Positions 26,196-61,805 of a stretch of DNA of 64,000 nt are shown piece after piece. A program made the position numbers and the translations under genes. Every line of letters begins with the position of its first letter. Position 1 is the first letter of the stretch. Under the pieces are notes generated by a model that worked only from the letters and a program-made list of their open reading frames with translations, was not told the origin of the DNA and searched no databases. This stretch comes from Cloeon dipterum (taxonomy: Eukaryota; Arthropoda; Insecta; Ephemeroptera; Baetidae): assembly GCF_949628265.1 (NCBI RefSeq), contig NC_088788.1:33528335-33592334 (forward strand). Direction: 5' to 3'.

Positions 26196-29100
26196 TTAGA
26201 ATAACTTAATTATACTCTCCCGTCCTTTGCCGACTCCAATGTACTGAACTGAAATTCAAACGACGACAATGAGCGATATGCTACCACTTCGATTTCGTCT
26301 TGGTGCCTTAAAAATTGCGCATATCTCAACAAACAATCAAACTCAAGTTTCAATTTTGCAAGTAAAGGGCATCATTTGATTCCACAGTGAAAATTTAGGT
26401 GTTTGTTGAGCTGTGCGTAATATTACGGCACCACGACGATTAGTTATTTAGCCGCCAATTACCTGGCACCCCGAGCAACTGCTGAATCCGCGTCACGTAC
26501 TGTTGTGCGTTTTCTGGCAAGTCGCTGAATGATCTCACGTTCTGGATGCTGCAGTTCCAGCCAGGCATGGTTTCGTACTCAACCTGAGGTAAATTTATGC
26601 CAGCTTGCCGCTACACTTGTCAAGACTTTCGACTTACCGTGACAGAGCCAAGTTCAGCCTGTCCACTGGGAAAATGTTTGATCTTCTGCCCGTTGAGAGA
26701 GTAGGACACCCCAATCTTAATTTCTGGGAAGCTATCCAAAACGTCTAGCTTCGTCAGAGCCAATCTGAAAAGAAAACAAGATGAACGCGATATTAAAATC
26801 AATGGGTAAATGCGTTTATTTAAATTGTTTAATATCCCAGAGGCCAGACTAGCGATACAGCTGTCTCGCTTCTCCCAATAAAATAGAAAACCTGGTTCAC
26901 TTCAAAGAATAATGGTATATCGCGTGTTATGAAAGCCTGAGGTTGAAAACCACTATTAATTTATTAATGTACGAAATGTACAGCTGTTGCATGAATAAAA
27001 CTGCGTATAAATAATGCATTTTTGCTGTTTTCTTTAAAAAAAGTAAGCCTATAATGTCTTATTGATTTTTTGAAATATCAATCAAAGCACAGACAGGAAA
27101 TCCATAAATTTCACTCTTTAGTCATTTCGTTTTTAAAATGCTTGACTGTGTATTATTAGAAAAAAAGTGTTCATTTTTACCACCACTCAATTTTCGCAAA
27201 TTCGCGTGCTTAAAATTGCACAATTTCTTTTATTAAAAATAAGAGAAATCATGACTTTATAGCAAAATAACCCGACCTGAAATCTGCTCCGAGGTTGGTT
27301 TTTAATTCTTTTTCACTAATTTCGAGCGCTTTTGGCGGTACTTGACGACGATTTTTAACCCATACCTGTGACCAACCTTCCTCAGGTCACGCGACCTGAC
27401 ATCGAGTTAGTTGTGGTTTTGCCGGCGCCGTCGCATATATGTTTGAGTCTTTTGGTCAATTTTGCTGCTTTGACGGACAGTTGCCTGAAGGACTGGCGCG
27501 TAACGCTCATCTGGAAGCCTTAAGTGCCCAAGGGGCGCTAGCCACTCGGCTTTTACTAACAATAATAAAAATTAAGACATTGCAGCAAAATTACTATGGT
27601 TATATTCAACGTTTAACTGTTATAAAGGACCACCACAAGCCCTGACTAGAGCTTGTTTTTATCAATTTCTGCAATTCTTAACACATATTCTATTTTGAAT
27701 GAATGGGGAGAGTCCAGATGGCGGCTTAGCCAAATTTTTGCCCAGCGGCGGCTGGCGTCAAGCGCGGCTGACAATATTTTAAACGTGAAGTTTGATAGTG
27801 CTTTACGCTCTAAAGGGCCGGAAAAAATATTTTCTCCTGCACTTATTAATTTTTGACCCTTTTTCACTGACAGCTGGCGCGGCTGCCTACGTGACCCAAA
27901 ATTTTCCGGCTGACTGAGACCCTTACAAGAACAGAAGTAGAATGTTCTCTCAATACTCTCATTAGCGGTAAGATAAAAAGAAACAGCTGCGGATCGACCG
28001 ATCGGCATGGCTTGGCAGTTGTTGTGGTCCACTTACGACGTGTAGCCGTTGATCATGCTGGTGTAGCGGAGGAGAGGGATGTCGAGCCAGCCGCACCGAC
28101 GCTTCCGCTGGGTTGTCACGCCGATCTCAGCACCAATGCTCTGCAGCTTATCCCCGATTTCCTTGTGGCAACAATTTCTAATTACACACTTGCGGCAGCG
28201 CAAACAAGATAATCCTTACGTTGATCTGCTCCGTGGGGAACGGCCCGTCGCCAACGCGGGTCGTGTACACCTTCACGACGCCGACGATCTCGCCGATGTT
28301 GCGCGGCGGCAGCCCCAGGCCGGTGCACACGCCGCCGATGCTGCAGTTGCTCGAGGTAACGTACGGATACGTTCCTGCAATGGACCAAGAGAAGCAAATA
28401 ATAAAATTGTGAAACGCCCAATACGAAAAAACAAATGCTAAACAATAGATCTGTTCACAAAACATTTACGGGTAATGCCCACAAAATGTTAATCAGTAAT
28501 CCAGTTGAGTGTGCTGAATGCATAGCAGGCAGTGTAATTTATTTTAAAATTAATTGACCAAATTCAAAATACTGCCAGGTAGAAAATAAAACTGAGTCAA
28601 TGCTGAGTTACTAAATCTCTTTCGTGAGTGCACAGCAGCTAATCGCAATTCACCCACAACTTGCACAATTTTCCACTCACCAAAATCGATGTCAAGCATA
28701 GTTGCGTTGGCTCCCTCGACCAAAACGTTTTTCCCTGAAGACAATGCGTCGTGGAGGAAGGTGACCGACTCGACAATCATCGGTCGCACCCTCTCGGCCA
28801 GTTCTTTGTATTTCTCCAGCTCGGACGCGACGTCAACCTGCAGGTTTGGAAACATCTTTTCGTGGACGGCCACCAGGGCCTGGAACCTGAGGAAAATGAC
28901 GGTAGTAAGCCTCGTTCTTTCCAAGGGGAATAATTTTCCTACTTTTCTGTGAACTGGGAGAAGTCCCCGATCAGGTCGGCGATGCGGATGCCGATTCTGG
29001 ACGCCTTGGACGAGTACGTTGGTCCGATTCCCTTCTTCGTGGTGCCAAGCGACTTCTTGCCCTTCTCCTGCTCCTGCATTCCGTCCACTTGCTGCATTTT

Positions 29101-32100
29101 CAATTTCACGGTCAGTTAGCGCGAGAGAGTTTATCATCTATTTGTCACCTGGTGGAGATCAAAGACGAGATGCGCCTTGTCGGAGATGAATAGTTTCGAC
29201 TGCCAATTCTCCAAACCCTTGGCCTCGCATTTCTTCAGCTCATCAAACATCCCCGGCAGATGGACAACCACTCCGTTGCCTGCAAATGTATTTGTTAAAA
29301 TTTGTATGCTTATAATAATTGCTGGATTCACGTACCGATCAGTGACAGGCACTTGGGTTGGATGATGCCACTGGGAAGCAAGTGGAAGTCAAACTCGCAG
29401 CCGTCCACGACGACCGTGTGTCCGGCATTGTTGCCACCCTGGAATCAGAAGATTGGAAGATGAATATTATGTGACATACAAGGCTTCATTTCTTTTTGTA
29501 TTTTAATTAGAAAAAAGCCTCACGGATAAACCAGACATGAATTATGAAATATCTCAGTTCATCCGCAATTGTTTATACATATTTAGAGAATGTTCTCTGA
29601 CTGTTTTTAATGCATTTATGAGTTTGCCTGACTTTTGAGAGGGCGGCAAGCAAGATTTTAATAGTATTTTGTATAATTTATATTTATGTAACTGGAATCT
29701 GGCACTGTAATTGTCTTCAAATAAAATTGTTCGGTCTTCATAAAGTAAAAATCTCATTTTGAACCCTTTATTGGCTCATTAAGAAATCGCTTTGTATGTA
29801 TAAAAAAATAGAAATTTTAAGTGACAATTAATGCAAAAGGTTAAGATATTTTTGGGCGAAAATCATTAAAAAATGAGACGATACAGCTCTACTGAAAATT
29901 TTAAAATAAACGAATGGCTCTTCTCTGAGCGGGTATTTATTCAGAAAGGCTAGCTAACGGTGAAAATTTGAAAGAAAAAACTTTTTAACACGTTCTTTTG
30001 CTATACAGCGGCTATTTCAGCAGTATTTTAACTCTAAAACAAAATCCATACCACAGTATGAGCTGCAGGGAATTCGAAATCGTCAAAAAAGGTCCAGCTT
30101 TACTCATTGCTGAGCTAAATCGATGGTATCCTCTTTTCGAATTTGTTCTGCAATGAGTATAAAGCCGGACTTTTCAACCATGTTGATTCTCTGCAGCTAA
30201 TACTGCGTGGTCTCAATTTTGTTTTGAACTGCTGTAACAAGGCCCGAGGTGCCGAAATAGCCGCTGCACAGAACAATAGCGTCAAAAGTCAAAATAGTGT
30301 TGTTTTGTCTCAAATAAATTGGTAGTTAGAAAACTGTTACGAAACTGCAATAATTTATTGATAGTTTCTCTTGTAACACTTTGAATTTAAAAAATTCAAA
30401 AACTCTTAAAAATACTTCTAAAAACTGTAAATTAGTTTCACGTTGCATTTTAAATAAAAATACGTTTAATTGACAAATCCTGATTGATTTGCAAATGTGG
30501 AGGAAAAGGATAACCGACCACCGACCCGACTGAAATACTAACATTTTTGTCCTTCACGAATTTTCTATATTCGTTTTATCCTCACTTCCCAATTTTTCCC
30601 CTTTTATCATACAAGACGTAAATATATGGATAGGTAATTTAACAATAATATTTGGATCAGAGTTGTGCGCATAAAGGCACAAACAAGTTATTTATTTCCT
30701 CCGCTAGACGTTTCAATACCACTAACCCCACTAATTAAAATCGCCTCTCTATGCTCTTTAAGGAAATAGACCAAAGCATTCGTGCCTAGCTAGTTTAATT
30801 CGAGCGGCGCAAAAGTGGTCTCGTTCAAGGCTTTGACCAAATCAGAGCGATCAGCGTGGTGTCGGCGCTAATGAAGAAGCAGCTTTGCTCTTTTCTCGTG
30901 CGTTGGCCGCGCGATTGTGACGCGCGCCAATTAGGGATGAGTCCCGACTCGTCATCAATTTCGCCGATTGTGCGGTGGACCGTTCTCTGTCGTTTATTTG
31001 CAATCATCAGCCTTGGCCGCAATCAAGCGCCGCGCGAGCCGCCGCTAATTAATATTTACACCCACCGAGAGCGGCGCAAAAGTAGTGAGCGCGCGTTTCG
31101 GCGCGCGCGTGTGTGGCAACTTTATCGCCGCCGCCGCCGCCGCGCAAAAGAAGAAGTTTGCTCGTAGATAAGGAAATGAGCGGGATTCGAGCCTTGTCCT
31201 TGCTGCTTTTTACGGGAGGGGACCGAGGAAGTGACTTTTCTGATAAACACCGTCGTATGTGAAACTTCTGGCGGAAAAAGCGACCGAGGCACGGTTCCGA
31301 GTAAAATTTAAAACTTCAACCACCGTCCTAACATTTTTGTTTATTTATAATAAATGTTTTCGATGAATAAACCAAATAAATAACATTCTGTCAACTTTTA
31401 GGGCGAACATTATTAATTGTTTACTCTCATCGTAGTCAGTACAAATATAGTGCAAAGTCAGAAATATATCGATGAGTACAAGGCAACAAATCTACGCACG
31501 ACCTCTTCTAGGTAATCTGTGAAATTCGGCCTCTCAGAAGTTAAATTGAGTTTATCTGTCAGTGGCACGTGTTAAATCCAAAATTGTCCCCGCATTCCTT
31601 GAAAAAATTGAAAAATAATAATCCGTTCAATCTCGTGGAAAAGACTTTTTCTGAACAAGAGAATTAAGAGGTTAAGGTCTCAAGAAAAATGTTTCAAAAC
31701 GATTTGGCAAAATCGGAAGATCGAAGACACCTATTTTTAAAATTGATGCTTAATCTAAAATTAGTAGTAAGAATTGGGCGTCGACAAAACATTTCATTCT
31801 GAGGTCCGAAACCCCAACACAAACAAATCGCTCATTCAAAATTTCCCTCTCGCACACTTGAGAAAAATTTTAAGACAGAGTTCAGGAATTCAAACAAACT
31901 GAATTCTCCACGGCGTTCGAGGAAAATCTCTTTGACGTGTTTTCTTTGCCACGAGATAAAGATGCGACAGCTGGCGTGAAAAATCGGCCAGTGCCAACAA
32001 GCTACTGCAGTCCACCTGAGGTGTGATTGATGGTGTCATAGGCAACGCAGACAACAACGGCCACGTTTGTTTCCCTTGGCCCATTACTCACAGAATTTTG

Positions 32101-40495: not shown

Positions 40496-41989
<1,494 letters not shown>

Positions 41990-47692: not shown

Positions 47693-48019
47693 ATGCTCTC
47701 ATATAGCAAAGGTGGCGTGAGGATGGTTTACAGTTTTGACGATGGAACTGAATCTGGCTGCGAAAGTAACAGCCTCCTGGTCAATTCGCACTCTTTGAAC
47801 ACTTCACAGCAAGTTCCTAAACAAGTTGATTCTGCATCAGTTTCAGCAACACTTGCTGTAACTGGCAAAAAAGACGACCAAATTACACAGCAAGTTCCTA
47901 AACAAGCTGATTCTGCATCAGTTTCCACAACACTTCCTGTAACTGGCAAAATAGACGACCAAATTACACAGCAATTTCCTAAAGAAGCTGATTCTGCTTC
48001 AGTTTCCTCAACACTTCCT
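47693..48019 (+). CDS. Paralogue 1 exon 1 with 27-residue tandem repeats
   Basis: After a 38-residue lead, a unit of 27 residues (81 nt) starting QQVPKQ, with core DSASVS.TL and ending VTGK.DDQIT, is repeated at 47807-47887, 47888-47968 and from 47969. The exon ends inside the third unit at CCT|GTAACT (48020). The rest of that unit lies in the 61-nt intron and runs into a stop at 48047. Confidence 0.75.
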
Positions 48020-51000
48020 GTAACTGGCAAAACAGACGACCAAATTTAATTAATATAACAATTATATCTTGTACTCTCAGGCTGTATCAAAATCTACTCG
48101 AGCAACTGATGATTACCGAATTAAGGCTTCTGATTTACCAGATAATTATTTCGATGACCTTCTGGATATCATGAATATGCAACCTCAAATACAACAGGAA
48201 GATATCTCACCTGAAGGTTTGTTAAGTCTGAGTGCTTTCACTCATCTATTTCAATTTCTCGTAATTCAGATGCGGCCCAATCATCAGCTTTGCCTGAAGA
48301 GACTCCTGCTGTGGTAAAAATCATAGATTTACCAATAAAGAAAGAGAACTTGTCTGACTGCATGGAAAATTCTGATGTAGTCTGTCCTGAGGCAAATACC
48401 AAAAATGCAAGTGAGAACCAAATTCTACTTGGTGATGAATACCACGCTGCGTCCATCAAGACCGTGACGTTCAAAAAGATAAAGATAAATATGAAAGAGA
48501 ACCAAAGGCCTTCACTTAGTTGTGAAAACAATCCACCTGTAGTAACGCAAAATACCATCTTGGATGAGGACAAATTGGTAAAGTTTGTTGAAGATCTACT
48601 TAGCCCAGCTTCTGCTGCATGTAGCAGTCGGTCTCCTCCGTCAACACCGTCTCCAACTAGCCAGAGCAAAATAACCACTCAAACAGCAAACAAATATGGA
48701 AATATCAGCAAATCAAACGTGAGCAATTTAATCAGAAAACAGTTTTAATGTGAGGTATTGATTTATTTTAAATTCTTAGTTGCCTTCAAAGGAGGAAAAT
48801 CAGTCAAATTCTGAAAGGGCTGCAAAAGTCATTAGTTCGAATCGTCAATCGATTGCCAAAGGGATAAATACTCAAATTCCAACCCATCAAAACAGATTAT
48901 TACCCTCTCAACCATTTCCTTACGCCGCACAACGTCCGCTGCTTCCTTTTGCACCTGTACAACCACGACCTCTATCACCTCCCCATTTGTATGGACAACC
49001 TTTACCAATCGTCCATCACAACACTATGCATCGTTGGCCACATCCACCTCGTCCTTTGCCACCAATCATGATGCCATACTTTGACCCTAATTTGCCAAAT
49101 CCATGCCACAGACCGCAAAATATTCCCACAACCACTTCAACAGTAATAAGAGAAGGTCTATTTTATTAAGTCAACTCTCAACTTTTTCTAACTCCAATAA
49201 ATTTTTTACTTTTTTTAGAAAAAGAGATAAGGACCATGGATGCTAGAAATTTAGTAGATGTCATGAAAGTGTCAAAGGCGCAGGGAACCAAAGTAAGGTT
49301 TATTTTCATTTAGGTTTTTTGCCTCTCGTCCGGTCTGAAATTCAAAATTGAACCTACGGTTTATTTAAATGCAATATATTTGTTTCAGACTGCTACAAAA
49401 GTCGTAAGTAGTGAACCGCCTGTCAAAACTTCCAAAACCGAGGTGGAAACAGTAAAACGCGATGAAACAGTTAATATTAGGCTGCGCAAACCGAAAATAA
49501 ATTTTAAATTATTTTTTTTCCAGAACACAAATGGCAGACTGTGTTTCAAGTGTAGTCATCCTTTAGCGAGCAAAGAGAACGGTCCCGAGAAAAAAATGAG
49601 CGAGATGGAAACTCAGGTTAATTGAGTGAAAGTATAGCAGAAAACCACGCATTAATTAATAAAAATTCTATTAGACATACTGTGAAGATGAGCTCACCAG
49701 TTCCAATGCACCAGTCGTTAAAACCTTTCAGACGATTGCCACTCAAGTATGAGTCAAATCATGTATTAATCATTTTGCTGATCTAATAGTTATTTTTTCT
49801 TTTCCAGACTGAGAAATGCATTAGAAAAGATGTGGATGATCCTCCAGTTTCTAGTGTAGAAGTCCAGACTGAGGTACATTTTGCAAGCTACTATCTCTTC
49901 TCAATTGTAAATATTTTTAATAGGTTAGCTCATCCCTCTTTGCTCACAAAGGAAAGAATGTGCCTGATGTGGACCCCAAATCTTATACAATTAACAAATC
50001 AAAGCAGGTAATTTCTCAATCAATTTGAATGTAATATAGCCACGCTATTCACAGCAAACTATACCAACTTTTCAAAAATTTTAAGGTCGACAGGCGTGTT
50101 AAAAACAAAGAATATGAAACTTTTTCCTTTTTGACTGAAGCAGCAATGTTGCAGGTATGGAGAATACTCTCTCACATTTTTATCCCTCTGTAACTGATAG
50201 TTTTTAGAATGAAAAGAATATGAGGGGAAATGATGATTTAGATGAAGATGCTTCATCCAAAGTCAAGAAAACTCAAATGGCAAGTAATATAGCTCAGTGC
50301 TCAGTTATTTTCATTTACAACAGTAATATATCTCTTGTAGAGTGAAAAATTGGTCACAACCAACGTCAAAATGGAGAAAAGTGATCCTGTTGAGTCAAGT
50401 GGAGCTGATAAGACTGAAGTAAATTCAACTTGTTGTATACTCTTGCAGTTTTTCACACCTGTGCTTATAGATTGGCGCTACCTTAAGAATGAAAAAGAAA
50501 AATTCTAATTTGAAACGAAGTGCTTCCTTAGATGCATCTGAAGCTGTTCCACCTCAAGCAAAGAGAGCTAATAAAGTAAATACATTGTAGATTAAGAGGT
50601 ATCGGCCACGCAATCTAAGGCGGCAGCTAGCTGAACCAGCTGCAGCTGAATTTTTGCCCAGAGACTGCAGCTGAAAAATTATCAAAGTTTAATAGTGTGC
50701 TTAACGGCCTTTTTTACTGGTTGCTTTGCTGAAGTCATGACAGCTGACCTAGTGACCCAATATTAGCTGGATGGCGCGGGCACAGCTGAGACCTGAGACT
50801 CTAGTTGTAGATCAGGAAACATAGCAACCACATATTTTGTAGAAGATTTTACAAATAATTGGTTTATAGATAAAATGCTGCATGATGCTATCATATTTTT
50901 TGTTTGTATGCAAAGGTACTCTCTGAAAGAGTAATTTATTGATTTACAATTTTCAGACGGATAGAACCGGAACAACAATAGCCAACAGCGAAACTGAAAC

Positions 51001-51259
51001 TTCTAAATCAAAGAAAACGCTCAAATTTCCATCACACAATCCAAATATGGGATCAATTCGAGGAAAAAGTACTAGAGGAAAAAATCAAATTCGTGGGTAT
51101 GCAAATGAAAGAAGTCGCGGCTTTCATCCCATGAGAGGTCATTACGTCTCACGGTGCTCCGATTACTATAAGTATGGTAATGCCAACTTCCGTCCACGCT
51201 CAAAATCTAAAAGATACGCATGGGAGATGCAAAACCTTGATATTAAACTGCATGATTAA
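47693..51259 (+). CDS. Disordered Lys/Ser-rich protein, paralogue 1 (unknown family)
   Basis: Fifteen coding exons: 47693-48019, 48081-48216, 48270-48718, 48780-49155, 49219-49292, 49389-49469, 49524-49616, 49675-49746, 49808-49873, 49924-50007, 50086-50154, 50208-50279, 50341-50418, 50471-50575, 50957-51259; 2385 nt, about 794 residues, every junction in phase. No known domain is seen. Parts in order: SKGGVRMVYSFDD at the start; three 27-residue repeats; IKASDLPDNYFDDLLDIM; an acidic region with KIIDLPIKKEN; a Pro-rich segment (HRWPHPPRPLPPIMMPY); nine short charged exons; a basic Arg-Gly-containing tail (STRGKNQIRGY). The first and third parts recur in the gene at 52486-61805. The acceptor at 47681 sits just before the ATG, so a non-coding or coding exon upstream is possible. 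A nuclear role is inferred from basic composition only. Confidence 0.72.
47807..48046 (+). repeat. 81-nt tandem repeat, about 3 units
   Basis: Three direct units of 81 nt, about 85-90% alike by eye. Each contains the same phase-0 GTAACT at 47858, 47939 and 48020. The last crosses the exon-intron boundary. Confidence 0.9.
48081..48216 (+). CDS. Paralogue 1 exon 2 with YFDDL motif
   Basis: It encodes IKASDLPDNYFDDLLDIM at 48120-48173. The same motif, VKASELPETYFDDLFDIM, occurs at 54457-54510 in the next gene (14 of 18 identical). It is short, acidic and amphipathic, like an interaction or activation motif. Its function is unknown. Confidence 0.75.
49389..50575 (+). other. Run of nine short phase 0-0 exons (paralogue 1)
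   Basis: Exons of 81, 93, 72, 66, 84, 69, 72, 78 and 105 nt each begin and end on codon boundaries. Several start ACT/ACA and end CAG or GAG before GTA/GTT. Each encodes a charged, disordered module, for example CIRKDVDDPPVSSVEVQTE. Any exon could be skipped without a frameshift. The 54-nt intron 49470-49523 is itself open in frame, so exons 49389-49469 and 49524-49616 might also be one exon. Confidence 0.65.
50280..50340 (+). other. GC-AG intron
   Basis: The donor is ATG|GCAAGT, with GC in place of GT, and the acceptor is TTGTAG. Only this donor keeps the frame (QM|SEKL); the nearby GTAATA would give a TGA at once. The rest of the donor matches the U1 consensus well, as is typical of GC donors. 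Confidence 0.7.
50595..50803 (+). repeat. Dispersed repeat family 1, copy b (degenerate)
   Basis: It lies in the last intron of paralogue 1. It shares ATTTTTGCCCAG, AGTTTRATAGTGTGCTTA, GACAGCTG.C and TAGTGACCCAA in the same order and orientation as 27711-27925, but is more diverged. It ends GCTGAGACCTGAGACT, like the other copies' CTGAGACC. Confidence 0.5.
50957..51259 (+). CDS. Paralogue 1 last exon, basic Arg-Gly tail
   Basis: It encodes 100 residues ending in MQNLDIKLHD before TAA at 51257-51259. It contains scattered RG dipeptides (IRGKSTRGKNQIRGY, SRGF, MRGH) and Tyr/Arg-rich sequence, typical of RNA-binding or phase-separating tails. RNA binding is inference, not shown. Confidence 0.7.
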   Translation, partial: TDRTGTTIANSETETSKSKKTLKFPSHNPNMGSIRGKSTRGKNQIRGYANERSRGFHPMRGHYVSRCSDYYKYGNANFRPRSKSKRYAWEMQNLDIKLHD

Positions 51260-52485
51260 CTGATCAAGTCGCTGTTTTTAATTTTGGGGACGGCTGTTGC
51301 GTCAGGTGCTTTTGATACAAAAGTTTTTTTTACTTTTTATTCTAAATGAGTGTAAAGACAAATCATGTACAAAAATGTCGAAATTTCGCTTAAAAATTAA
51401 TTTTTAACAATTTTGGATGTTTTGTTTTTAAATATTTTGAGCTCTGAAGGACTGCGTCACACTATTTATTGCTCAGTGGTGTTCGTAATATAATGCTCAA
51501 CATGTACAAATCATATGGTGAAAATGTTGCTGAGATAAAAAGGTGGTTAGACACAATAGCTTATTGGAGGTTTGGATGTCAAAATTTATCACTCAGTTAA
51601 TGTTCCTTAAACGAAACGCCAGTTACCATAATGATTGATATGTATGGTATATATTATAATTTAGATAATTTATTTAATGATCATATTATTAAGGACGCCT
51701 GAGTGGTGTTTTATATGTACTTGTATTTTATTGAATTATTAGTTAATACATATTAAATTTGCACAAAACATTTGTGCGATTCTCATCAAAGTAGAGCATG
51801 TTTAGCAAAGAGACATGTGCGCCTGCACCGGTCCATTACTTCGCCAACATTATTTCAACGCACGATTTTTTTAATATTCATGTGGCATCTCATTAAACTA
51901 GAACACAAGATATTATTTTTTGGTACCTTGTCTTCTGGAAAACCTTTTATTGAACGTATTTGTATTCGTGTGTCCTATTGATATGCAAATAATATCAAAG
52001 ATCTTGGATTTGTCAGATTTTTTAGGAGATTATTTATGAATTTGGCGTACAGAAGTAAAATTAAATTGGATACATGGGTTAATTTTGTAAAAAAAAATGT
52101 ATAATAGGAATATGATATTCTGGTATTAAAATAAAAATAAAATAAATGATTTATGCATTTTACTATGAATTTTATTACCTCGATGCACTCTCTCCTGTAG
52201 ACCTAATTCAGCTTTCAAAACAGTCGTAAAAATTTCAAAATAATGCCCTGCTAATTCATTCAAAGCATCTTAATATTCATTGTCAGTAGTAACTTTATTT
52301 TGTTGGTGTTCTCGCGCCCATTCCCGCTGAAGAGAGAACAAAAACAAACCAGCGTGGCAGGGCCGTGAGCGGCGTGAGCAATGTTACTTCGATAGTGACG
52401 CGACACGCTAGAGCATCAAACATTTAACAAAATTATTTGCCGATCTGGCAGAAGTTATTGACTGATAACGCAACGAGCTTTTGCC
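51260..52485 (+). other. 3' UTR of paralogue 1 and promoter of paralogue 2
   Basis: AATAAA copies cluster at 52130-52146, about 0.88 kb after the stop. A short GC-richer patch at about 52310-52485 precedes the next ATG and is its probable promoter and 5' UTR. No TATA box is evident. Confidence 0.45.
52130..52146 (+). terminator. Poly(A) signal cluster of paralogue 1
   Basis: Three overlapping or adjacent AATAAA hexamers lie downstream of the stop at 51259 and upstream of the next gene. Confidence 0.4.
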
Positions 52486-55400
52486 ATGGCACCTGTTAGC
52501 AACGTTTCTCGGGTTTCTCGTGAGTATCTAATTTTATTCTGATTCTGTTTAGTTTTTTGTCAAATGTACATACATACATAAATCATCTGTATGTAAGTAT
52601 GTAAGAAAGGCTTCGTCAGCTCCGTTTTAATTCATGAATGGGTGGCACTATATACATAATTAATTATGTTAATTTGGCTGTTTTAAATTGATGCTTCGAC
52701 GTATTCCAAAATCGCACCTGTATATATTTCGGATTAATGGAATAAAAGTTATTTTGAATTTGAATTTGTACATACATATATTATATGTAACTCGCTCCTT
52801 ATGTATTTAATTTCTTAGATGGTGCAGATTCTTGGTCCTCAGTGCTTATAAATTGCGTCCGAATAGGGGCCGAAACACCTATAATTAATTAGGTGCGGAT
52901 AGGGGTTGAGGTCACGGCAGTATGCATTATGTACCTAATCATAATATTTTATTATGACGATTTTCATTTAACTCTAGAAACATAGACAAAATTCATCTTT
53001 CTTTAGACAATTTTATTATAATATATTAAGTGCAAAAAACATTTTAGGGGCTTCATCCTATTCGCAACCAATACAAGTGCCAATAGTTACCCTTCTTCAG
53101 GGTGGGTTTGGGTATTAATTATTGTGATTTAGTTTGTGGTTTTTTTTTAGTTTCCTGCACCTTCTCTTTTTCTATCGCCACACATCGTCTCTTAAAAATA
53201 AACATAATATGTTATTGCGAGAATTGGTCTAATTAAAATTAATAAAAAATTGCTCAAGTGTATTTGATTATTTTGTTGTTTTCTTTCTTCAGCTGTTACA
53301 TCGCCGAAAAGGAGCAAGGGAGGAGTTTTGATGGTGTATGCGCCTGATGATGAAGAAGCTGGCGGTGAGGTGTCCATCTCAATTGATGATTTCATCAAAG
53401 CCGAGCCGAATCGTCCTGCAAGTATCAGCAAACCAACCTTGAAAGAAGTACCACCCAAACCACTGACCCAGCTCGCCACTGAGACTGTTGGGATCCATAA
53501 TGAGTCCGCGATCTCAAATCAAACTCGGCTAAAGAGCGCAACCATCAGCGGGCCAAGCAACGTTTGTGAAAAAACATCACTGCCATCCTCATCTCTTCTG
53601 AAAGTTAACATTGCCAAACAGTCTGTGAAGGACGTCTGTGATGTTCAAAGGATTTCTGCAAATCCTTGCATAGCAACCTCGCAGTGTCGCTCTAGTCCAA
53701 GAGATCAGCAGCCTAAAACAATACTGTTGTGTCCTCCACTTTCCAGTCTGACTCCAAGTATTGCTGGAAATAAAACGAAGAGTGTCACTGCATCTCTTTT
53801 GAAGAATCCGCAAACAAATGGCAGAGAATCACCTTCCATCTGCAGTTTGAAGAAAGATATTGTACCACTTCTCTCTCATTCCACCAGTAAAAATGCGATG
53901 GTGTCCACTGGCGTTTCAAAGATCAAACCTGCAGAGCTTCGCGACGATGGGAGTGAGCAATCCTGTCCTCCTTTGCTTTTGACTCGGCTGCCTGAACGAT
54001 CTGGACCTCCCAAATCGATTTCAAGCGTAGCTGGAAATCATTGCAAGACTACTCTAACTGCTGGTGCACAAAAAACTGCTACAGTATCCCAGAAAATATT
54101 GCTTACGAGTTCAACTCTTGGAATAGGCTCCATAAATCAGACAGCTTCAACTGTGTCGTCCTTACAAATGAAAGATAACACTCTGCCCACCTGCAATGAA
54201 AATGGTATAAATGCAAACTTGAAAACTTTACTCTTTGGCTTTCATATGATTATCCCAAATCCCATTTTTAGCTAATGTCAACTCTAATCATCCCGCCTCT
54301 GTAGTGGAAAAAACGCAGCTGACTCAAATTCCTAGAGGAGCAGAGGGTATGAGACCAGGAGCAACCGGAACATCTGAAAATTTAAATGGAAACACGCCTG
54401 CTTTAGTTCAAAGTCAGCCGACGGACTTCTCTCTGCAGACAGAGGACAACATTAATGTGAAAGCCTCTGAATTGCCTGAGACTTATTTTGACGATCTCTT
54501 CGACATAATGGACCTTAAGGGAAGAAACGACACCAAAAAAGGTAAATAACTTACATCTATTTTGAATAACCTATTTAGTAAATCAATTTTTTTTTTTTGC
54601 AGAGAGAGACAACTTAAATGCGGTTTCAGAAGACATGCATTCAAATGAGGATATATGCAAAAGCAATCGTCAAAACCCACCCACAAAAGAAGCTAATTCT
54701 TTGCAACCGCCCCTTACGAAACCTCCACTTCCAGCTCAAGAAAAGGATATTGCAACAAATCCCCTTGCTAAAGAGGACCAAATGTTGAAAGAAACCAATT
54801 CAGCCTTGGAAAATATCACATATTTAAGTGGAGCGAAAACTTCATGCCCTTCACTTGAAAGAAAGAATGCATTGGAGACATTGTTGGAATCACTGAAGTC
54901 AGCATGTACAAAAGCTGAAGAAAACTCCAGAGGTGAAAAAGCTGATAAAAAGGTAAAATCTTCGCATTCAACCAACAAAGTTACATTGCCCCAAGACTCT
55001 GATTTGATCACGACAGCTCAAAAGAGCAAAAAAGATAGCATCCACTCACAAGCTTTCAAAAATAAAAGTTATCTTCCTTCCTTGAAGACTCCAGCATCAA
55101 CAGAGGGGCCAAAACCAACTACTGGACACGCTGCATTTAAAATAGGCCTCGGTAATTCTAAGAAATTGTTTGCCGCAGAGGAAGGAAGTGCATCGCAGTT
55201 ATTAAGATCTGAAACTTCTTTCTCTGCAAGTACCAAAGCTGCAGGGATCAAACACAAGAAAAAAGCTGAACAACCGTCAAAATCTACAAAACCTTCAAAC
55301 AAGTCTTATCCGGGCATGGCCAGTGAAAATGACAAAAATCAAGAGTCCCTCTCTACCTCAAAGACAATGGATCCAACTGGAGAGGGAAAATCCAAAACAA

Positions 55401-58400
55401 GCTCAAACAACACTGAAAAAACAGGAGGTCTAAATTTGGAAAAAAAATCGTCACCTCCAAAGGATGATAATGCCTCCAAGTCAAGATCAAAGGTTTCAAC
55501 TCTCCCTTCAAGTGCCAAAGTCAAAGAGGTCAAACACAAAAGAAGTTCCAAACAGCCTTCAAGCTCTAGCAAGAAACATTTACCCTCAAAAGAGCGTGAT
55601 TCAACAGTGGCAGTCATTAAAGACAGTGAAGGAGGCAGCGATCATAAATCGAACAAAAATCAAGACTCTCATTCTACTTCCAAGGCTAAAGAACCAACAA
55701 AAGTAGAAAAGTCCAAATCAAGCACAGAAAATACTGCACTGCGAATGAAAGATCCCTGTGACGCTAAGAATTCTTGCACCGAAGATAAAGGAAATAATGC
55801 GTCTCAGTCAAAAGCTTCAACTTTCCCTGCAAGTGCGAAACGACCCAAAACAAACAACTCAAAAGAACATTCGCCTTCTACAGAGACTGGTTTGACCATG
55901 GCTGTACAGAAAAATGGAAAAGAAAGCAGCCATAAGATCGTTGACAAAAAATCATCATTGGACGTTAGGGAGTCGATTGAGGTTGAAAAAACAAAAGCAA
56001 GCACTGGAAACATTGCTGCACAGGTTAAAGACCTCAATGACGGCAGTAAATTGTGCTTGGTGGAAACAGGAAAGGCACCTCTGGTTTTGCCATCATCACA
56101 AACTCCAGCTTGCCTTGCCAGTGCTCAAGTGAAGCAGATCAAACCTTCCAGAGATGCTAAAAAGCTGCAGCCCTCAAGGTCAACCAATAAAACTTCCACC
56201 ATGAAACAATCTAATTTGAGCGTGGCTGTTCCAAAAAATGGAGAAGAAATCAATCGCCAGATTTTGGATAAAAATCAAGTCTCACTCATTCCATTGGGGC
56301 CAAAAGAGCAGCCAGAAGAAGAAAAATCCAAACGGACTTTGAAAAATACGGAAGTAATGAAAGATGATCATAGTGGTGTTAAACTTACGTGCCCCTCAGA
56401 AGGAAGTAATTCATCCCAGTCAAGAACAGTAATTTCATCCTGTCCTGCAAGTTCGAAGGTGGAAAATGCAAAATCTAAAACAGGTTATAAAAAGAGGAAG
56501 TCCACAAACTTAACCAACGATCAACCGCCTCTAAAAGTGTGTGATTTGACGGAGGCAGTTCAAAAAGTTGGAGAAGAAAGCATTCATCAGATATCAGACA
56601 AAAATAAAGAATCTTTCCGTTCCTTGAAGACAAAAGAAGCTCCTATATTGGATAATTCCAAACCATCCACAAAACAAGCTGAAGAAATGATCGTTGCTAA
56701 ACCTTCATGCTCTCCAGAACAGGAAAATTCTTTGTCAAGATCTAAAATTTCACCTGCCCAATCAAATCCAAAGAATAACAAGATCAAACTTACAAGTGCT
56801 AAAAAACTGGAGGCCGCAAACTCGCCCAAAAAACACTTCCTTGGGATAAAGTCTGATGTGATCGAGGCACTTCAAGAAGACCATCCAATTTCCTCAAAGG
56901 CAGAAGAATCTCCTAAAGTTGAAAAACTTAAGCCTGCTCCACAAAACGAAAAGATGAAAGACAAGATCATATCAAAAGAATCTTCTGCAGACGACGGCAC
57001 TGAAACCGCAGGAGATAAAAACAGTGGGAGTACTAATGATGGCGAAGAAAAATCGGAAGGAAAACTTAGAGCTGTTTCCAAAAAAACTGATAAAGCTGGC
57101 AAGATCATCAACAAGAATGAGGAGAAGCCATCTTCAAATGCAGATCAACCACCAACAGGGGACAAACAACCTGAAAGAACACAATCTAAAATTCGACCAA
57201 GCAAGCGTCTACTTGAAGGGCAAGAGTCAGCAGAAGCTTCACCTTCTTTAGATGTTCAGACCAACATCGAAGCTTGCACAGCTAATGTTAGTAAACGTAA
57301 AAAGAAGGAAACCCATAACTGTTCCGCATGCTGTAGCACCAACAAGAGCCCTAGCAAGATCTCGAGACCACCTAGTGCGAAAATGGAAACAACTGATGAG
57401 GTGAAGGTGGAAAAAAATGCCAAGAACCAAGAACTTTATGAGTTGGAAACTAGACCTGATACATCAAAAAATGAATTGACTGAGGAGACTGGCGCTAAAC
57501 CAGCAAGACGCGGCCCTAAACCTAAGAACAAAGATGCGAAGGAAACGCTATCAAAGGCAGGGAAAAGAAATTCTGCCTCTGGAGAAAAGAAATCAAAGGT
57601 AAATTCAATCAATCTCTTATAAGTCGTAAAACTAATTCTGACCTTATATTTGTGTCAGCAGAGCTTTACACTGAAAAAACGTTCTCTGCGATTGAAGAGG
57701 AAGGAAAGGAAGCAACTTTTAGCTGATCAAGTTGAAAGTTTCCCAGTTGAGCGCGCTTTACGCTCCAACTCAACAAAGTTGCCGTCTGTCATCGCTGATC
57801 CTCCTAGCAAGGTAGAGAACCTCAGGATATTTCCCCCTATTATTTCTATATAATCATGTTTTTTTTCACCATCAGCAGCCGCAAAAGTGCCAAACCACAA
57901 GGAAAAGTTCAAAACCTCGCAGCATCTTACCCAAAGAGCTCTTGGATGAAGCTGCCATCCCAAATGTAATACTAATGACTTTATATATTTTATCTTAATC
58001 TTATACATTGAAATATTTCTTATTAGGATGCTGAAACTGATGGGTCTGTTGGACCTTATCGCCAGGAGGCCGCTCCAAAAACTAGCTGCACCATTGGCAC
58101 ACAGGTATAAAATACTAACAGGAAATTGATTGCAGTTATAAGCACATTTAATTTTAATTTAGACTGAGTTCGTCTCTGAGATTCCTCAGGTGGCCGACGT
58201 TGCACTTAAAAAGACATTCAAAAGTATATCCACGCAGGTGTGTATGATTATTTATGGTATTTTACATTTTAACAATAAATAATAATTATGGTTACAGACG
58301 GTAACAACTTCAGAAGCAACAACAGAGACCTCACTTACTGTGGCTGATTCCCCAGAAGATAGGGAAAATACTAATATTCCTGAGGTGAAATCAAGAATTT

Positions 58401-61400
58401 GGTTGTTCTGTATCTTTGCTAACATAATGGATTGGTTTTTATTACAGATGACTGTGGATTGCCAAAATCAGGCACCAAGCGCGTTGAGTGATCGAGCAAA
58501 AATAACCAAAAAAGGGGATGAATCAGTTAAAACATGGGAAATGCTTTCTTCCTCAAAAACCTCTTCTTGTGACAAGATTTCTAGAGATAGACAAGAAGTC
58601 ACCAATTGCGATGAAACCGATGCAGTGATAGCAAAAGAAAAGAGCGCTGGTAACAAGAATTCAGACAATCATGCGAGTAAAACGGGAACAAGCTGTGCAA
58701 CTAATGACAGAAAATCTCTAAAACCAGAGGTAATATTATTTTTCCCATTCCTCGTTCTGGATATTAAATATTTATTAAATTTTAATATGTTTGATTCAGA
58801 GTTTGCGTGAAACGGGACACGGAGCAAAGAAACGTTCTTCACCTACTGCAGCGTCAACTTGTGAAGAATCCCAGTTAAAAAAACCACGGAAGGTAAGATT
58901 TTTAAACTGGCTTAAAGAGCGTGCTGAAGGATATTTTTAAAAAAGCTTTATCTAATTTATTAGTATAGTATAATATAGTACGCCTAAAACTGTAATATTC
59001 TTGTTGCAGGATGACTTAGATGTTGTTGCGGTGATGCGTAAATCCATCGGCAAGAAAAAAAGCAATGCCACAAGGAACAAGACAAGTAGAACAGAAGAGA
59101 CCATCCTTATTAGCTCGGATGATGAATCCTCAAATAGGGATGTTGAGCAAACCCAAATAGGGACTGCTGTAAGTGATACTTATTCGTTGAATAAGTATTT
59201 GGGTGCTAATAAATTAATGCTTGTTGCAGAAGGATGTTCAAATCGTCGCAGTAAATATGAGCACTATAACAATGCTCTCTGACGATGAATCTTCAAGCAA
59301 TGAGAAAGAGCAAACTCAAAAAGGTGGAGACGATACTAATAATTTGCAATTACAACAGGTAACTTTTGTTGAAGAATTAGTAAAATTTTAAGCTGTTAAT
59401 ACATGTGGCATTAGGATGTTGAAATGAATAGTGGTGAGGAAAATCCAAACACTGACACTAGCAACTTCGACTGTAGTTCAGGAATGACTGATGGTGGAAC
59501 TACTAGCAAACATGCAGAGCAAACCCCAAAAGCAGCGGCCTGCAGTGAAACTAATACAGTGGTCTCGCTACAAGTTACGGTTACAGTAACTCCAAATGAG
59601 GTCACATCTAATGTGCAAATTACTCCAGAGAACATTGATCACTCAGAGGTGAATATTGCTGATTGAAGCGCTATTTTTTATAATTAAAACCTTACTTTTT
59701 AAGGGCGAACATAACTTGAACAGCATTACAAACAAAGAATCATCTGATTTTGTATCGACTTCCGATCTTTCCAATGAGAAAACCAAGACGGTAAGAATGA
59801 CACAATCTCTTATTTTATATATTTATTTCGGTGTAGACTAAGAATAGGTATTGTTGGTCTATGCTGTTCAACTGCAGGATGCTCTGCATACATTAAATTT
59901 TACGGAGCATTATTATTGCGCTAATTTAGGCAAATTCCATCTAGCTGCTGTATCAATAGTTAACAAACTTTTACTTTCGCAGCACGAAAGAGAAATCAAG
60001 TCATGCGCTGGTGCCAAGGTTTTGGACTGTGAAATGGAAATAACCAGCAAAGCAGAAGAAAAACAAAGGAAATGTGTTCAAAAACCTGATCAGAAGAAAT
60101 CTGAGGAGAAAGTAAATGCACAAATAGCTACCAAGTCCAAGGTAATTCTTTTCTAGCATTAATTTTATGTAGAGGTCTCAGCCAGCCATGCTGCGCCTCG
60201 CAAGGTGGCAAATTTTGGGTCACGTGGGCAGTTGCTGGTTAAAAAGGGTCTAAAATTAAATGGTGCATGAAGAGTTCTGGCCCTTTCGGGCTGCTAGGCA
60301 CTATCAAACCTCATGTCAGCCGCGCAAGCCTAAAATGGCCAGCCACCACTGTTTGGCAAACAATTTTGCTAAGTAAGCGGGTCCCGCCAGACACCACCTT
60401 TAATCTCGTGGCTGTGACCTCTAATTTTATGCTAAATATAAGCACATTGCTATGGGAGCTAAACCAATTTTGTGTTTTTGTAGATGGATGGAGAGATCAA
60501 GAAGAAAAAACGAAACGATGCTGCCAAGAATTTGGGCCATCAATTAGAAACTGTAAAATCTGGTGATTCGACTAATTCAGTAGAGGCACCAAATTCAACA
60601 GAGGCTACAAAACCCACAAGTGACAAGATTTGCAGCTCTGCAGTGAAAATCACCATAAACACAAACGTTGGAAATGAAGCTGGGGAAGTTCAGGCGACTC
60701 GTGTCAGCGGAACCACTACCAATATAACACCAAACAAGGGCATTACTAATACTGAACCTAGGAATGGAGAAGGAAAGTACAAAATTTCTGCAGGAGGGAG
60801 CAGCAAGAAAAAACTTAGCGCGTCAAATTCTACCCAGTCTAAGGTAAATTATTATAAATAAAACACCGCATCTGGTGGAAGTTTAAACGTTAATAATTTT
60901 TCCACTGGTTAACTAAATTTCAAAGTGCTCACTAAAAACCAATTTTGCCACAAACGTGCAAAAATTTAGCCCTACTTGCAAAATAAGTTTGTAGATCAAT
61001 ATAGTAGTAATTGTAGAAAAAATTAATGAATTACACCGTTGTGAATGTTAAGAAATATTTCATAGCTAGCAGGGAGAAGTCATTAATCTCCTGGAAATAA
61101 TCTTGTTAATAAAGAAAGCTAGTTTTCCAGTCAATTTGCTTTATACTTAGTAAACTAACTTGTAAATTCATTTAATCTTATTTGCAGACGGTGGGAAGAG
61201 ACATCAAGATCAATGCACCAAGCAGTGCCAAGTCCAAAAGTACCAAATCTGCTATAAATGCTTGTGAGCTTCCTGTCATTGCCAATGATTGCGGCAAACC
61301 CAATCTGAATGTCAATGTGAAAGACACTATGGAGAATAACTGCAGCAGTCAAATGCTGGAATTAAAACCTGATCTTGCAGCAAACTCGGGGATGGCTCAA

Positions 61401-61805
61401 GAAAAGTGCACTACCCCAATAAGCACAAGCGAATTCAACAATGCTCAAGCAACAAGCAACAGCAGCATTTCTTACGATCAAACGTTACCAGCTAACCCGA
61501 ATTTGAGGTATGTAAGAAATGCAAGTGCAGACCGAGGATATTACGGAGCTCAACGTGTTGCACCAAATTTTCGCACGGCAGAACCATTAATGAGAGGACA
61601 TCCATATCCGTCACCCCAAGGCAATTGGCAGTGGCAACAACGACGTTCCCTCATGGGCCCTGTTCAAAATCCCTGGCTTCACCCACCACCTGGTTGGTAC
61701 TCATATGGTGGTTCATACAACAATTACCCTCAAACAAATTATGCTCATCAGAATGCGTACTATCCTCCTGCAGACTATGATAGACATATGGACGAAAATT
61801 GGTAA
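52486..61805 (+). CDS. Giant disordered Lys/Ser-rich protein, paralogue 2 (unknown family)
   Basis: Eighteen coding exons: 52486-52519, 53293-54204, 54305-54541, 54603-57598, 57659-57811, 57876-57965, 58027-58104, 58163-58237, 58298-58384, 58448-58729, 58800-58892, 59010-59168, 59230-59358, 59415-59648, 59704-59790, 59878-60141, 60484-60843, 61188-61805; 6888 nt, about 2295 residues, all junctions in phase. No known domain is recognised. Order: SKGGVLMVYAPDDE (residues 19-32); an IKAE SUMO-type site; VKASELPETYFDDLFDIM; about seven 100-residue Lys/Ser repeats in one 3-kb exon; thirteen phase 0-0 exons, two carrying AVxx...SDDESS cores; a Tyr/Pro/Gly/Gln-rich tail ending MDENW. The two shared motifs and head-to-tail placement point to duplication with 47693-51259. 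The exon at 59878 is the least certain. A chromatin or RNA role is speculation. Confidence 0.75.
53293..54204 (+). CDS. Paralogue 2 exon 2, N-terminal region
   Basis: It starts PVTSPKRSKGGVLMVYAPDD, then acidic EVSISIDDFIKAEPNRP (IKAE fits the SUMO-acceptor consensus), then about 280 Ser/Thr-rich low-complexity residues. The acceptor is TTTCTTCAG and the donor is ATG|GTATAA at 54205. The frame continues past the donor to a stop at 54275, so retention would truncate the protein. Confidence 0.78.
54305..54541 (+). CDS. Paralogue 2 exon 3 with YFDDL motif
   Basis: It contains VKASELPETYFDDLFDIM at 54457-54510, the counterpart of 48120-48173 in paralogue 1. Entry and exit are both phase 1, so the whole motif exon can be skipped in frame. 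Confidence 0.78.
54603..57598 (+). CDS. Paralogue 2 exon 4: 3-kb exon of degenerate ~100-residue repeats
   Basis: It encodes about 998 residues rich in Lys, Ser, Glu and Thr. A pattern recurs about seven times: DLT.AVQK.GEES opening, DKN.ES..S.K.KE, then SK.ST.NT, then SQSK.ST.PASAK, then a KK-rich end. Openings lie near 55000, 55307, 55594, 55885, 56209, 56540 and 56851. The last 200 residues are non-repeat and highly basic. Long exons of this kind are common in disordered scaffold proteins. Confidence 0.8.
59010..59358 (+). other. Duplicated exon pair in paralogue 2
   Basis: Exons 59010-59168 (LDVVAV ... ILISSDDESSNRDVEQTQIG) and 59230-59358 (VQIVAV ... TMLSDDESSSNEKEQTQKG) share opening and closing blocks in the same order. 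This points to tandem exon duplication, followed by loss of the basic middle (SIGKKKSNATRNKTS) from the second. Confidence 0.65.
60171..60390 (-). repeat. Dispersed repeat family 1, copy c (inverted)
   Basis: It lies in the intron between the exons at 59878 and 60484 and is the reverse complement of 27711-27925, with shared blocks of 10 to 16 bases in the same order. It is GC-rich compared with its flanks and non-coding. The chance frame across it is a shadow. Confidence 0.65.
60844..61187 (+). other. Last intron of paralogue 2
   Basis: AT-rich, with donor AAG|GTAAAT and acceptor TTTGCAG. Nothing else was recognised in it. Confidence 0.7.
61188..61805 (+). CDS. Paralogue 2 last exon, Tyr/Pro/Gln-rich tail
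   Basis: It encodes 205 residues, starting TVGRDIKINAPSSAKSKSTK and ending in a prion-like stretch (WLHPPPGWYSYGGSYNNYPQ, AYYPPADYDRHMDENW) before TAA at 61803-61805. The aromatic, low-charge tail contrasts with the highly basic body of the protein. Confidence 0.78.
   Translation, partial: TVGRDIKINAPSSAKSKSTKSAINACELPVIANDCGKPNLNVNVKDTMENNCSSQMLELKPDLAANSGMAQEKCTTPISTSEFNNAQATSNSSISYDQTLPANPNLRYVRNASADRGYYGAQRVAPNFRTAEPLMRGHPYPSPQGNWQWQQRRSLMGPVQNPWLHPPPGWYSYGGSYNNYPQTNYAHQNAYYPPADYDRHMDENW

Follow-up and report, generated by a model that had tools for sequence, protein, structure and literature searches.

Ki-67 is a large, disordered protein of the nucleus in which a single giant exon encodes degenerate repeats of ~120 residues, and ASCIZ (ATMIN), a transcription factor that binds LC8, has zinc fingers. 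Both resemble in part the subject of this analysis, a tandem pair of genes (gene 1 and gene 2) lying head to tail on the + strand in a stretch of 64,000 nucleotides of Cloeon dipterum (Ephemeroptera; assembly GCF_949628265.1, contig NC_088788.1, positions 33,528,335 to 33,592,334). We call this whole stretch the window, and coordinates refer to it unless a contig is named. LC8 (DYNLL), a small protein that forms dimers, binds an eight-residue stretch in disordered chains, most often anchored by a Thr-Gln-Thr (TQT) triplet, and phage display gave VSRGTQTE as an optimum (PMC6607443). Seven motifs are reported for ASCIZ of Drosophila (PMC10046861). The closest layout that we can point to is that of Panoramix (Panx), a Drosophila factor of co-transcriptional silencing by PIWI-interacting RNAs (piRNAs), which LC8 dimerises through two TQT motifs; isothermal titration calorimetry gives a Panx:Ctp stoichiometry of 1:2, and a double TQT mutant fails to rescue silencing (PMC7861614).

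Compared at the level of their coding sequences, the two genes prove to be ancient tandem duplicates in which four short blocks are constrained at the protein level. Two of these blocks surround a pair of TQT triplets, which is why we name LC8 as a likely partner, TQT being the anchor of LC8-binding sites. The genes are modelled as follows.

47693 to 51259, + strand: coding region of gene 1, from inspection of splice sites and frame; 14 coding exons, 812 amino acids (aa).
52486 to 61805, + strand: coding region of gene 2, from automatic chaining and then by hand; 18 exons, 2271 aa.

The start codons (ATG) stand at 47693 and 52486 and the stops at 51259 and 61805. The initial annotation of this locus had adjacent genes of 794 and 2295 residues here; the coordinates and the adjacency hold, and the lengths come close to those of the present models. 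A first automatic chaining gave 10 exons for gene 1 and 19 for gene 2, and exons were then added or changed by hand, guided by frame and splice sites and without transcripts, so that the exon numbers depend on the model. The runs of 0-0 exons that had been described are confirmed, with phase 0 at introns 5-13 of gene 1 (nine consecutive) and introns 4-17 of gene 2 (14 consecutive).

Two of the shared blocks lie in the N-terminal part of the proteins.

47705 to 47731, + strand: SKGGVRMVY box of gene 1, 8 of 9 residues identical with gene 2.
53313 to 53339, + strand: SKGGVLMVY box of gene 2, 8 of 9 residues identical with gene 1.
48120 to 48173, + strand: YFDDL box of gene 1, IKASDLPDNYFDDLLDIM, 13 of 18 residues identical with gene 2.
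54457 to 54510, + strand: YFDDL box of gene 2, VKASELPETYFDDLFDIM, 13 of 18 residues identical, with a predicted helix over YFDDLFDIMDL.

When both proteins were shuffled 200 times, at most 7 matches turned up in any 9-residue window, against 8 observed in SKGGVxMVY, and at most 11 in any 18-residue window, against 13 in the YFDDL box. The first motif thus stands as originally claimed, and so does the sharing of the second, although its count is 13 of 18 rather than the 14 first given. The alignment of the YFDDL exons was equalled by 0 of 2000 shuffles; with gaps allowed, the SKGG exons aligned at p 0.0125 (2000 shuffles), and for this box we rely on the ungapped window test instead. In both genes a phase-1 intron comes after the YFDDL box. 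A tblastn search of the species' own genome (190,111,064 bases in 10 contigs, the window being 33.53-33.59 Mb of contig C3) with the gene 2 YFDDL box found two places at E<=10, gene 2 itself and gene 1 (E 0.0044 for gene 1). The same search with the gene 2 SKGG box retrieved the box itself and nothing else, and a genome-wide search is therefore too insensitive to count SKGG copies.

The initial annotation held that only these two motifs are shared and that the rest has diverged beyond recognition. This was too strong, and it overlooked a third shared exon, of phase 0-0 and flanked by TQT triplets. That exon is the shared element most open to interpretation, and it points to LC8 as a likely partner, which the annotation had not named.

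49611 to 49677, + strand: first TQT of gene 1 (METQ|T), split by an intron; triplet scan and LC8 matrix.
49675 to 49746, + strand: TQT exon of gene 1 (exon 7), TYCEDELTSSNAPVVKTFQTIATQ, phase 0-0, 24 aa; comparison of short-exon pairs.
49741 to 49810, + strand: second TQT of gene 1 (IATQ|TE), split by an intron; triplet scan and LC8 matrix.
58099 to 58165, + strand: first TQT of gene 2 (TIGTQ|TE), the best LC8-like site, split by an intron; LC8 matrix.
58163 to 58237, + strand: TQT exon of gene 2 (exon 8), TEFVSEIPQVADVALKKTFKSISTQ, phase 0-0, 25 aa; comparison of short exons.
58232 to 58300, + strand: second TQT of gene 2 (SISTQ|TV), split by an intron; triplet scan and LC8 matrix.

Exon 7 of gene 1 and exon 8 of gene 2 have KTF-x-x-I-x-TQT in common, with a TQT across the junction at both ends. 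Taken with six flanking residues, they form the top pair among 126 short-exon pairs (shuffle p 0.0002, uncorrected). Only 19 of 20,000 shuffles (gene 1) and 71 of 20,000 (gene 2) contained two TQTs 15-30 residues apart, and such a pair is present in both genes. Gene 1 also holds more TQT triplets than expected (3 against 0.24, p 0.0016).

The four aligned blocks (SKGG, YFDDL, TQT 1 and TQT 2) contain 35 identical residues among 67, and 27 of the 33 identical degenerate codons differ silently; in the two TQT blocks the count is 9 of 11. Pooled silent difference per site (pS) is 1.02 and pooled replacement difference per site (pN) is 0.29, the latter biased downwards because the blocks were picked for their similarity, a bias of which pS should be free. 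Silent sites are saturated and residues kept; we conclude that both frames code for protein, that the duplication is old and that selection maintains the boxes. It could be argued that these are ordinary lineage-specific disordered proteins that dock no partner in common and whose motifs persist merely through common ancestry, and the lack of any match in the libraries searched and the comparison of just two sequences would agree with that. We regard this as highly improbable, since with silent sites saturated, descent without selection would have erased the motifs.

The pair matches nothing described in the libraries used (Pfam, NCBIfam and PDB sequences). Pfam gave zero matches to the whole gene 1 protein (812 aa) and, for gene 2, zero above the cut-off when exons 2-18 were scanned one by one, a procedure that leaves aside the 11-aa exon 1 and by which a domain split over short exons could escape; PhoD (E 0.048) and SCIFF (E 0.028) appeared below the threshold. 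NCBIfam had zero matches for gene 1 and for exons 4 and 18 of gene 2, and the PDB, searched by sequence, had zero for the gene 2 TQT segment, the gene 1 YFDDL segment, the whole of gene 1 and exon 4 of gene 2. A Foldseek search of the PDB with a low-confidence AlphaFold model also returned zero matches and is uninformative. Among viral contigs there were 71 pattern matches and zero relatives.

The case for LC8 starts from the TQT pair and was scored with a matrix of our own, distinct from LC8Pred. It was built from Tables 1-2 of PMC6607443, counted by eye, using 16 of 19 binder rows and 23 of 43 non-binder rows. The binder rows omitted were one duplicate (MUC4) and two viral ones, and four "weak" rows were omitted too; the 20 omitted non-binder rows mostly have no Q[T/I] anchor, although DDX1, UBN2 and a plant-virus row do have it. 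One non-binder, ANKIB1, was mis-parsed to seven residues and its score is void, leaving 22 valid non-binders. The gene 2 site CTIGTQTE scores 17.7, which exceeds every non-binder given a score (23, of which 22 valid) and, in leave-one-out, 14 of the 16 binders. The three best windows of gene 1 are QTIATQTE (12.2), SSVEVQTE (11.1) and SEMETQTY (10.7), and the second TQT of gene 2, KSISTQTV, scores 10.9, third in that protein. For gene 1, 4.2% of 500 shuffles attained the best observed window and 0.6% the second-best; for gene 2 these shares were 0% and 4%. Two further sites of gene 1 belong here.

49862 to 49870, + strand: VQT (SVEVQTE), a further LC8-like site of gene 1; triplet scan and matrix.
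48677 to 48685, + strand: TQT in ITTQTAN, a weaker LC8-like site of gene 1 (score 6.8); gene 2 counterpart not seen.

Both genes thus have eight-residue TQT-anchored motifs within disordered regions, as LC8 clients do, with middle scores that overlap those of non-binders, and the TQT pair is kept between the paralogues, in the one pair of sequences compared. A two-exon LC8 gene is present in the genome, and its second exon is 52/53 identical to PDB 1rhw. The gene is almost identical to animal LC8 of known structure, in keeping, as are the neighbouring ORFs named below, with an animal genome. A peptide of the human LC8 binder ICE1 has an IGTQ-type site, as in TIGTQTE of gene 2, the comparison covering the peptide alone (PMC6607443). 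Taking these together, LC8 binding at the TQT sites is likely.

Several observations pull the other way. A TQT is insufficient in itself, and numerous TQT peptides do not bind LC8 (PMC6607443). The matrix discriminates poorly in the middle score range: 4 of the 23 non-binders score above 12.2, the best gene 1 site, and 5 of 23 above 10.7 and 10.9, while the unpaired TDFSLQTE (11.2) outranks the second TQT of gene 2. After correction for the 126 pairs, the p value of the TQT exon is ~0.025, and a wider local alignment of the region gives p 0.015. TQT is not enriched in gene 2 alone (2 against 0.75 expected, p 0.17). When gene 1 was aligned globally (MAFFT) with a gene 2 protein lacking the body, the SKGG boxes and the YFDDL boxes came to lie opposite each other and the TQT exons did not, and tblastn of each TQT exon against the species' own genome gave the self-match only. 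All four paired TQTs cross exon junctions, where splicing prefers CAG|A anyway. A scan of gene 1 for patterns like SUMO-interacting motifs (SIMs), which occur in gene 2, found none.

We propose, with about equal confidence for and against, that the pair encodes nuclear, disordered scaffolds whose TQT pair is clamped in parallel by LC8, with the YFDDL and SKGG boxes docking others. Each gene encodes a long, mostly disordered scaffold. Two LC8 dimers would engage the paired TQTs and keep a pair of chains parallel, as a homodimer of either gene product or a heterodimer of both. Docking of other partners would fall to two peptides, the SKGG box and the YFDDL box, the latter as an acidic amphipathic helix, and the scaffold between the motifs would be free to change, partly through expansion of internal repeats. 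Basic clusters, the SIM-like strings of gene 2 and tails rich in aromatic residues and in RG suggest a nuclear protein that collects SUMO- or RNA-bound partners. We infer the LC8 binding, the nuclear location and the docking partners; parallel clamping is modelled on the reported Panoramix case, and the mechanism as a whole follows that of known LC8 clients, applied here to two genes that the searched libraries do not match. The general idea of the initial annotation, docking motifs on divergent disordered scaffolds, fits the saturated silent sites, the absence of Pfam matches above the cut-off (gene 1; 17 of 18 gene 2 exons) and the predicted YFDDL helix. For the chromatin, germline or RNA-granule roles that it suggested, the hints seen here are the NLS-like basic clusters, the SIM-like strings of gene 2 and the aromatic/RG-rich tails.

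If the LC8 sites are real, they would give a named partner and a quick test to a gene pair that otherwise offers no handle, and one dimerising hub would join divergent disordered duplicates. The Panoramix study reports no clear homologues outside insects and asks whether the use of LC8 is ancient or an insect innovation (PMC7861614). Should the present genes be expressed in the gonad, a second pair of disordered TQT-pair scaffolds, found together with duplicated NXF genes in one genome, would be relevant to that question; otherwise this would be one more LC8 client family.

We also considered that one or both genes are this lineage's Panoramix or its equivalent, a silencing scaffold working with a diverged NXF protein. 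Panoramix, like the proteins described here, is disordered, has two closely spaced TQT sites and is poorly conserved over much of its length, and putative insect orthologues with two or three predicted motifs have been reported (PMC7861614). TQT pairs on divergent disordered proteins are present in both our genes, gene 2 has the SIM-like strings, and the genome has three TAP_C (NXF) matches, two of them ~285 kb away on the same contig. However, the well conserved parts of Panx, the Nxf2-binding region and the TQTs, are C-terminal and its N-terminus is poorly conserved (PMC7861614), whereas here two conserved boxes, SKGG and YFDDL, are N-terminal and the TQT pair sits at ~65-68% of the length, with several exons after it. 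We consider this identity quite unlikely. Because of the C-terminal conservation of Panoramix, we do not claim membership of its family; the likeness that we show is one of layout. A bolder version, a long shot in our view, would have an independent or very ancient animal counterpart of Panoramix, with two duplicate silencing scaffolds zipped by LC8 into homo- and heterodimers, the YFDDL helix docked on the UBA-like domain of the diverged NXF duplicates of this contig, and SUMO readers in the larger paralogue. As to the NXF genes, C3:33286800-33296700 holds two convergent, diverged members of that family, with NXF_NTF2 and TAP_C matches on both strands and LRR_NXF1-5 above the cut-off on the + strand only; the third TAP_C match is on contig C1.

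The YFDDL box admits other explanations. AlphaFold, given exon 3 of gene 2 with exon 2 of gene 1 as a second row (two sequences), predicted a single helix of at least four residues, at 71-81 (YFDDLFDIMDL), in blocks with pLDDT 79-83; the other blocks had low confidence (pLDDT 44-57; mean 56.9, pTM 0.22). The prediction, coming from two sequences, is only an indication, and the box fits an acidic amphipathic docking helix. Patterns resembling the p53 transactivation domain and a nuclear export signal both match it. One alternative is an acidic activator or repressor, in which a coactivator or a corepressor would be brought in by YFDDL as a transactivation-like helix and the TQTs would be incidental to splice-site sequence. 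Both boxes match F-x-D-L-[LF]-x-I-M, which resembles the first activation helix of p53, a helix is predicted there, and acidic residues are interspersed with aromatic and aliphatic ones; but Pfam finds no DNA-binding domain (gene 1; 17 of 18 gene 2 exons), and a TQT exon common to the paralogues with 9 of 11 degenerate codons silently changed is unexpected of incidental sequence, so that we hold this explanation to be unlikely. A reading of YFDDLxDIMxL as an export signal of the CRM1 type, in proteins that would shuttle, is very unlikely: Phi-x3-Phi-x2-Phi-x-Phi does fit both boxes at the same place (F-DDL-[LF]-DI-M-x-[ML]), yet the pattern is rarer than in shuffles (2 against 6.1 in gene 1, 5 against 6.6 in gene 2), and the conserved upstream KAS-LP residues fall outside such a signal. 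As the pattern is not above chance, we keep it as a rival only. Readings of YFDDL as an eIF4E-binding or cohesin-binding motif were set aside after a look at the respective consensuses. A literature search found neither "YFDDL" anywhere nor "SKGGV" together with "disordered". The strongest amphipathic-helix window of gene 1 lies elsewhere, in DEDKLVKFVEDLL (aa 253-265, exon 3), with no gene 2 counterpart seen.

Returning to the scaffolds that we propose, disorder was judged from composition (FoldIndex and TOP-IDP), and FoldIndex is below 0 in 73% of 41-residue windows of gene 1 and 75% of those of gene 2. The low-complexity bodies described earlier hold up in this respect, except that aa 537-1154 of gene 2 form a degenerate repeat array.

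54995 to 56848, + strand: degenerate repeat array of gene 2, aa 537-1154 (618 residues); profile.

The array has at least six repeats of 92-110 aa, with indels, inside the 2996-bp exon 4. A profile made from four units found two further ones (16 and 39 bits), with zero units in gene 1 and zero matches in 200 shuffles of gene 2, and one unit searched against the genome gave five matches in gene 2 and one elsewhere at E 3.5. As in Ki-67, degenerate repeats lie in one giant exon of a disordered protein, the repeats themselves having been compared with Ki-67 through Pfam only; the proteins differ in that Pfam finds no FHA domain in gene 1 or in exons 2-18 of gene 2. The likeness to ASCIZ/ATMIN, a disordered chain with several TQT-type motifs, is likewise partial, as the Pfam scans of gene 1 and of 17 of the 18 exons of gene 2 showed no C2H2 zinc finger.

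59103 to 59126, + strand: SIM-like ILISSDDE of gene 2; pattern and shuffles only.
59272 to 59295, + strand: SIM-like MLSDDESS of gene 2, the second string; pattern and shuffles only.
50471 to 50575, + strand: basic cluster of gene 1 exon 13 (KRSASLDASEAVPPQAKRANK) resembling a nuclear localisation signal (NLS); by eye.
58800 to 58892, + strand: cluster of gene 2 exon 11 (KKRSS...KKPRK) resembling a bipartite NLS; by eye.
50957 to 51259, + strand: RG- and aromatic-rich tail in the last exon of gene 1; by eye; likeness to the gene 2 tail not significant.
61188 to 61805, + strand: Tyr/Trp/Pro-rich tail in the last exon of gene 2; by eye.

The SIM-like pattern has four overlapping matches at three sites in gene 2, against 0.36 expected in shuffles. 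We do not claim the C-terminal tails as a shared block (p 0.57; whole last exons p 0.077), nor the NLS-like exons, exon 13 of gene 1 and exon 11 of gene 2 (p 0.068). The gene 2 tail has no second copy in the genome at E<=0.1.

At its 5' end gene 1 may have an extra upstream coding exon, because the frame is open through a 5' splice acceptor, and its first modelled exon ends in a repeat.

47805 to 48046, + strand: 81-bp (27-aa) tandem repeat in three copies that extend over the end of exon 1 of gene 1; sequence.

Intron 1 begins within copy 3 in this model. Every copy carries a potential GTAACT donor (47858, 47939 and 48020), and the length of exon 1 may vary for that reason. Elsewhere in the window, open reading frames (ORFs) at 18050-18826 have by eye what we take to be a likeness to the oxygen-dependent part of HIF-alpha, with Pfam matching neither of the two scanned, and neighbouring ORFs match adenylosuccinate synthetase (exon or exons at 28550-29137, - strand) and an astacin metalloprotease (exon or exons at 40694-41185, + strand).

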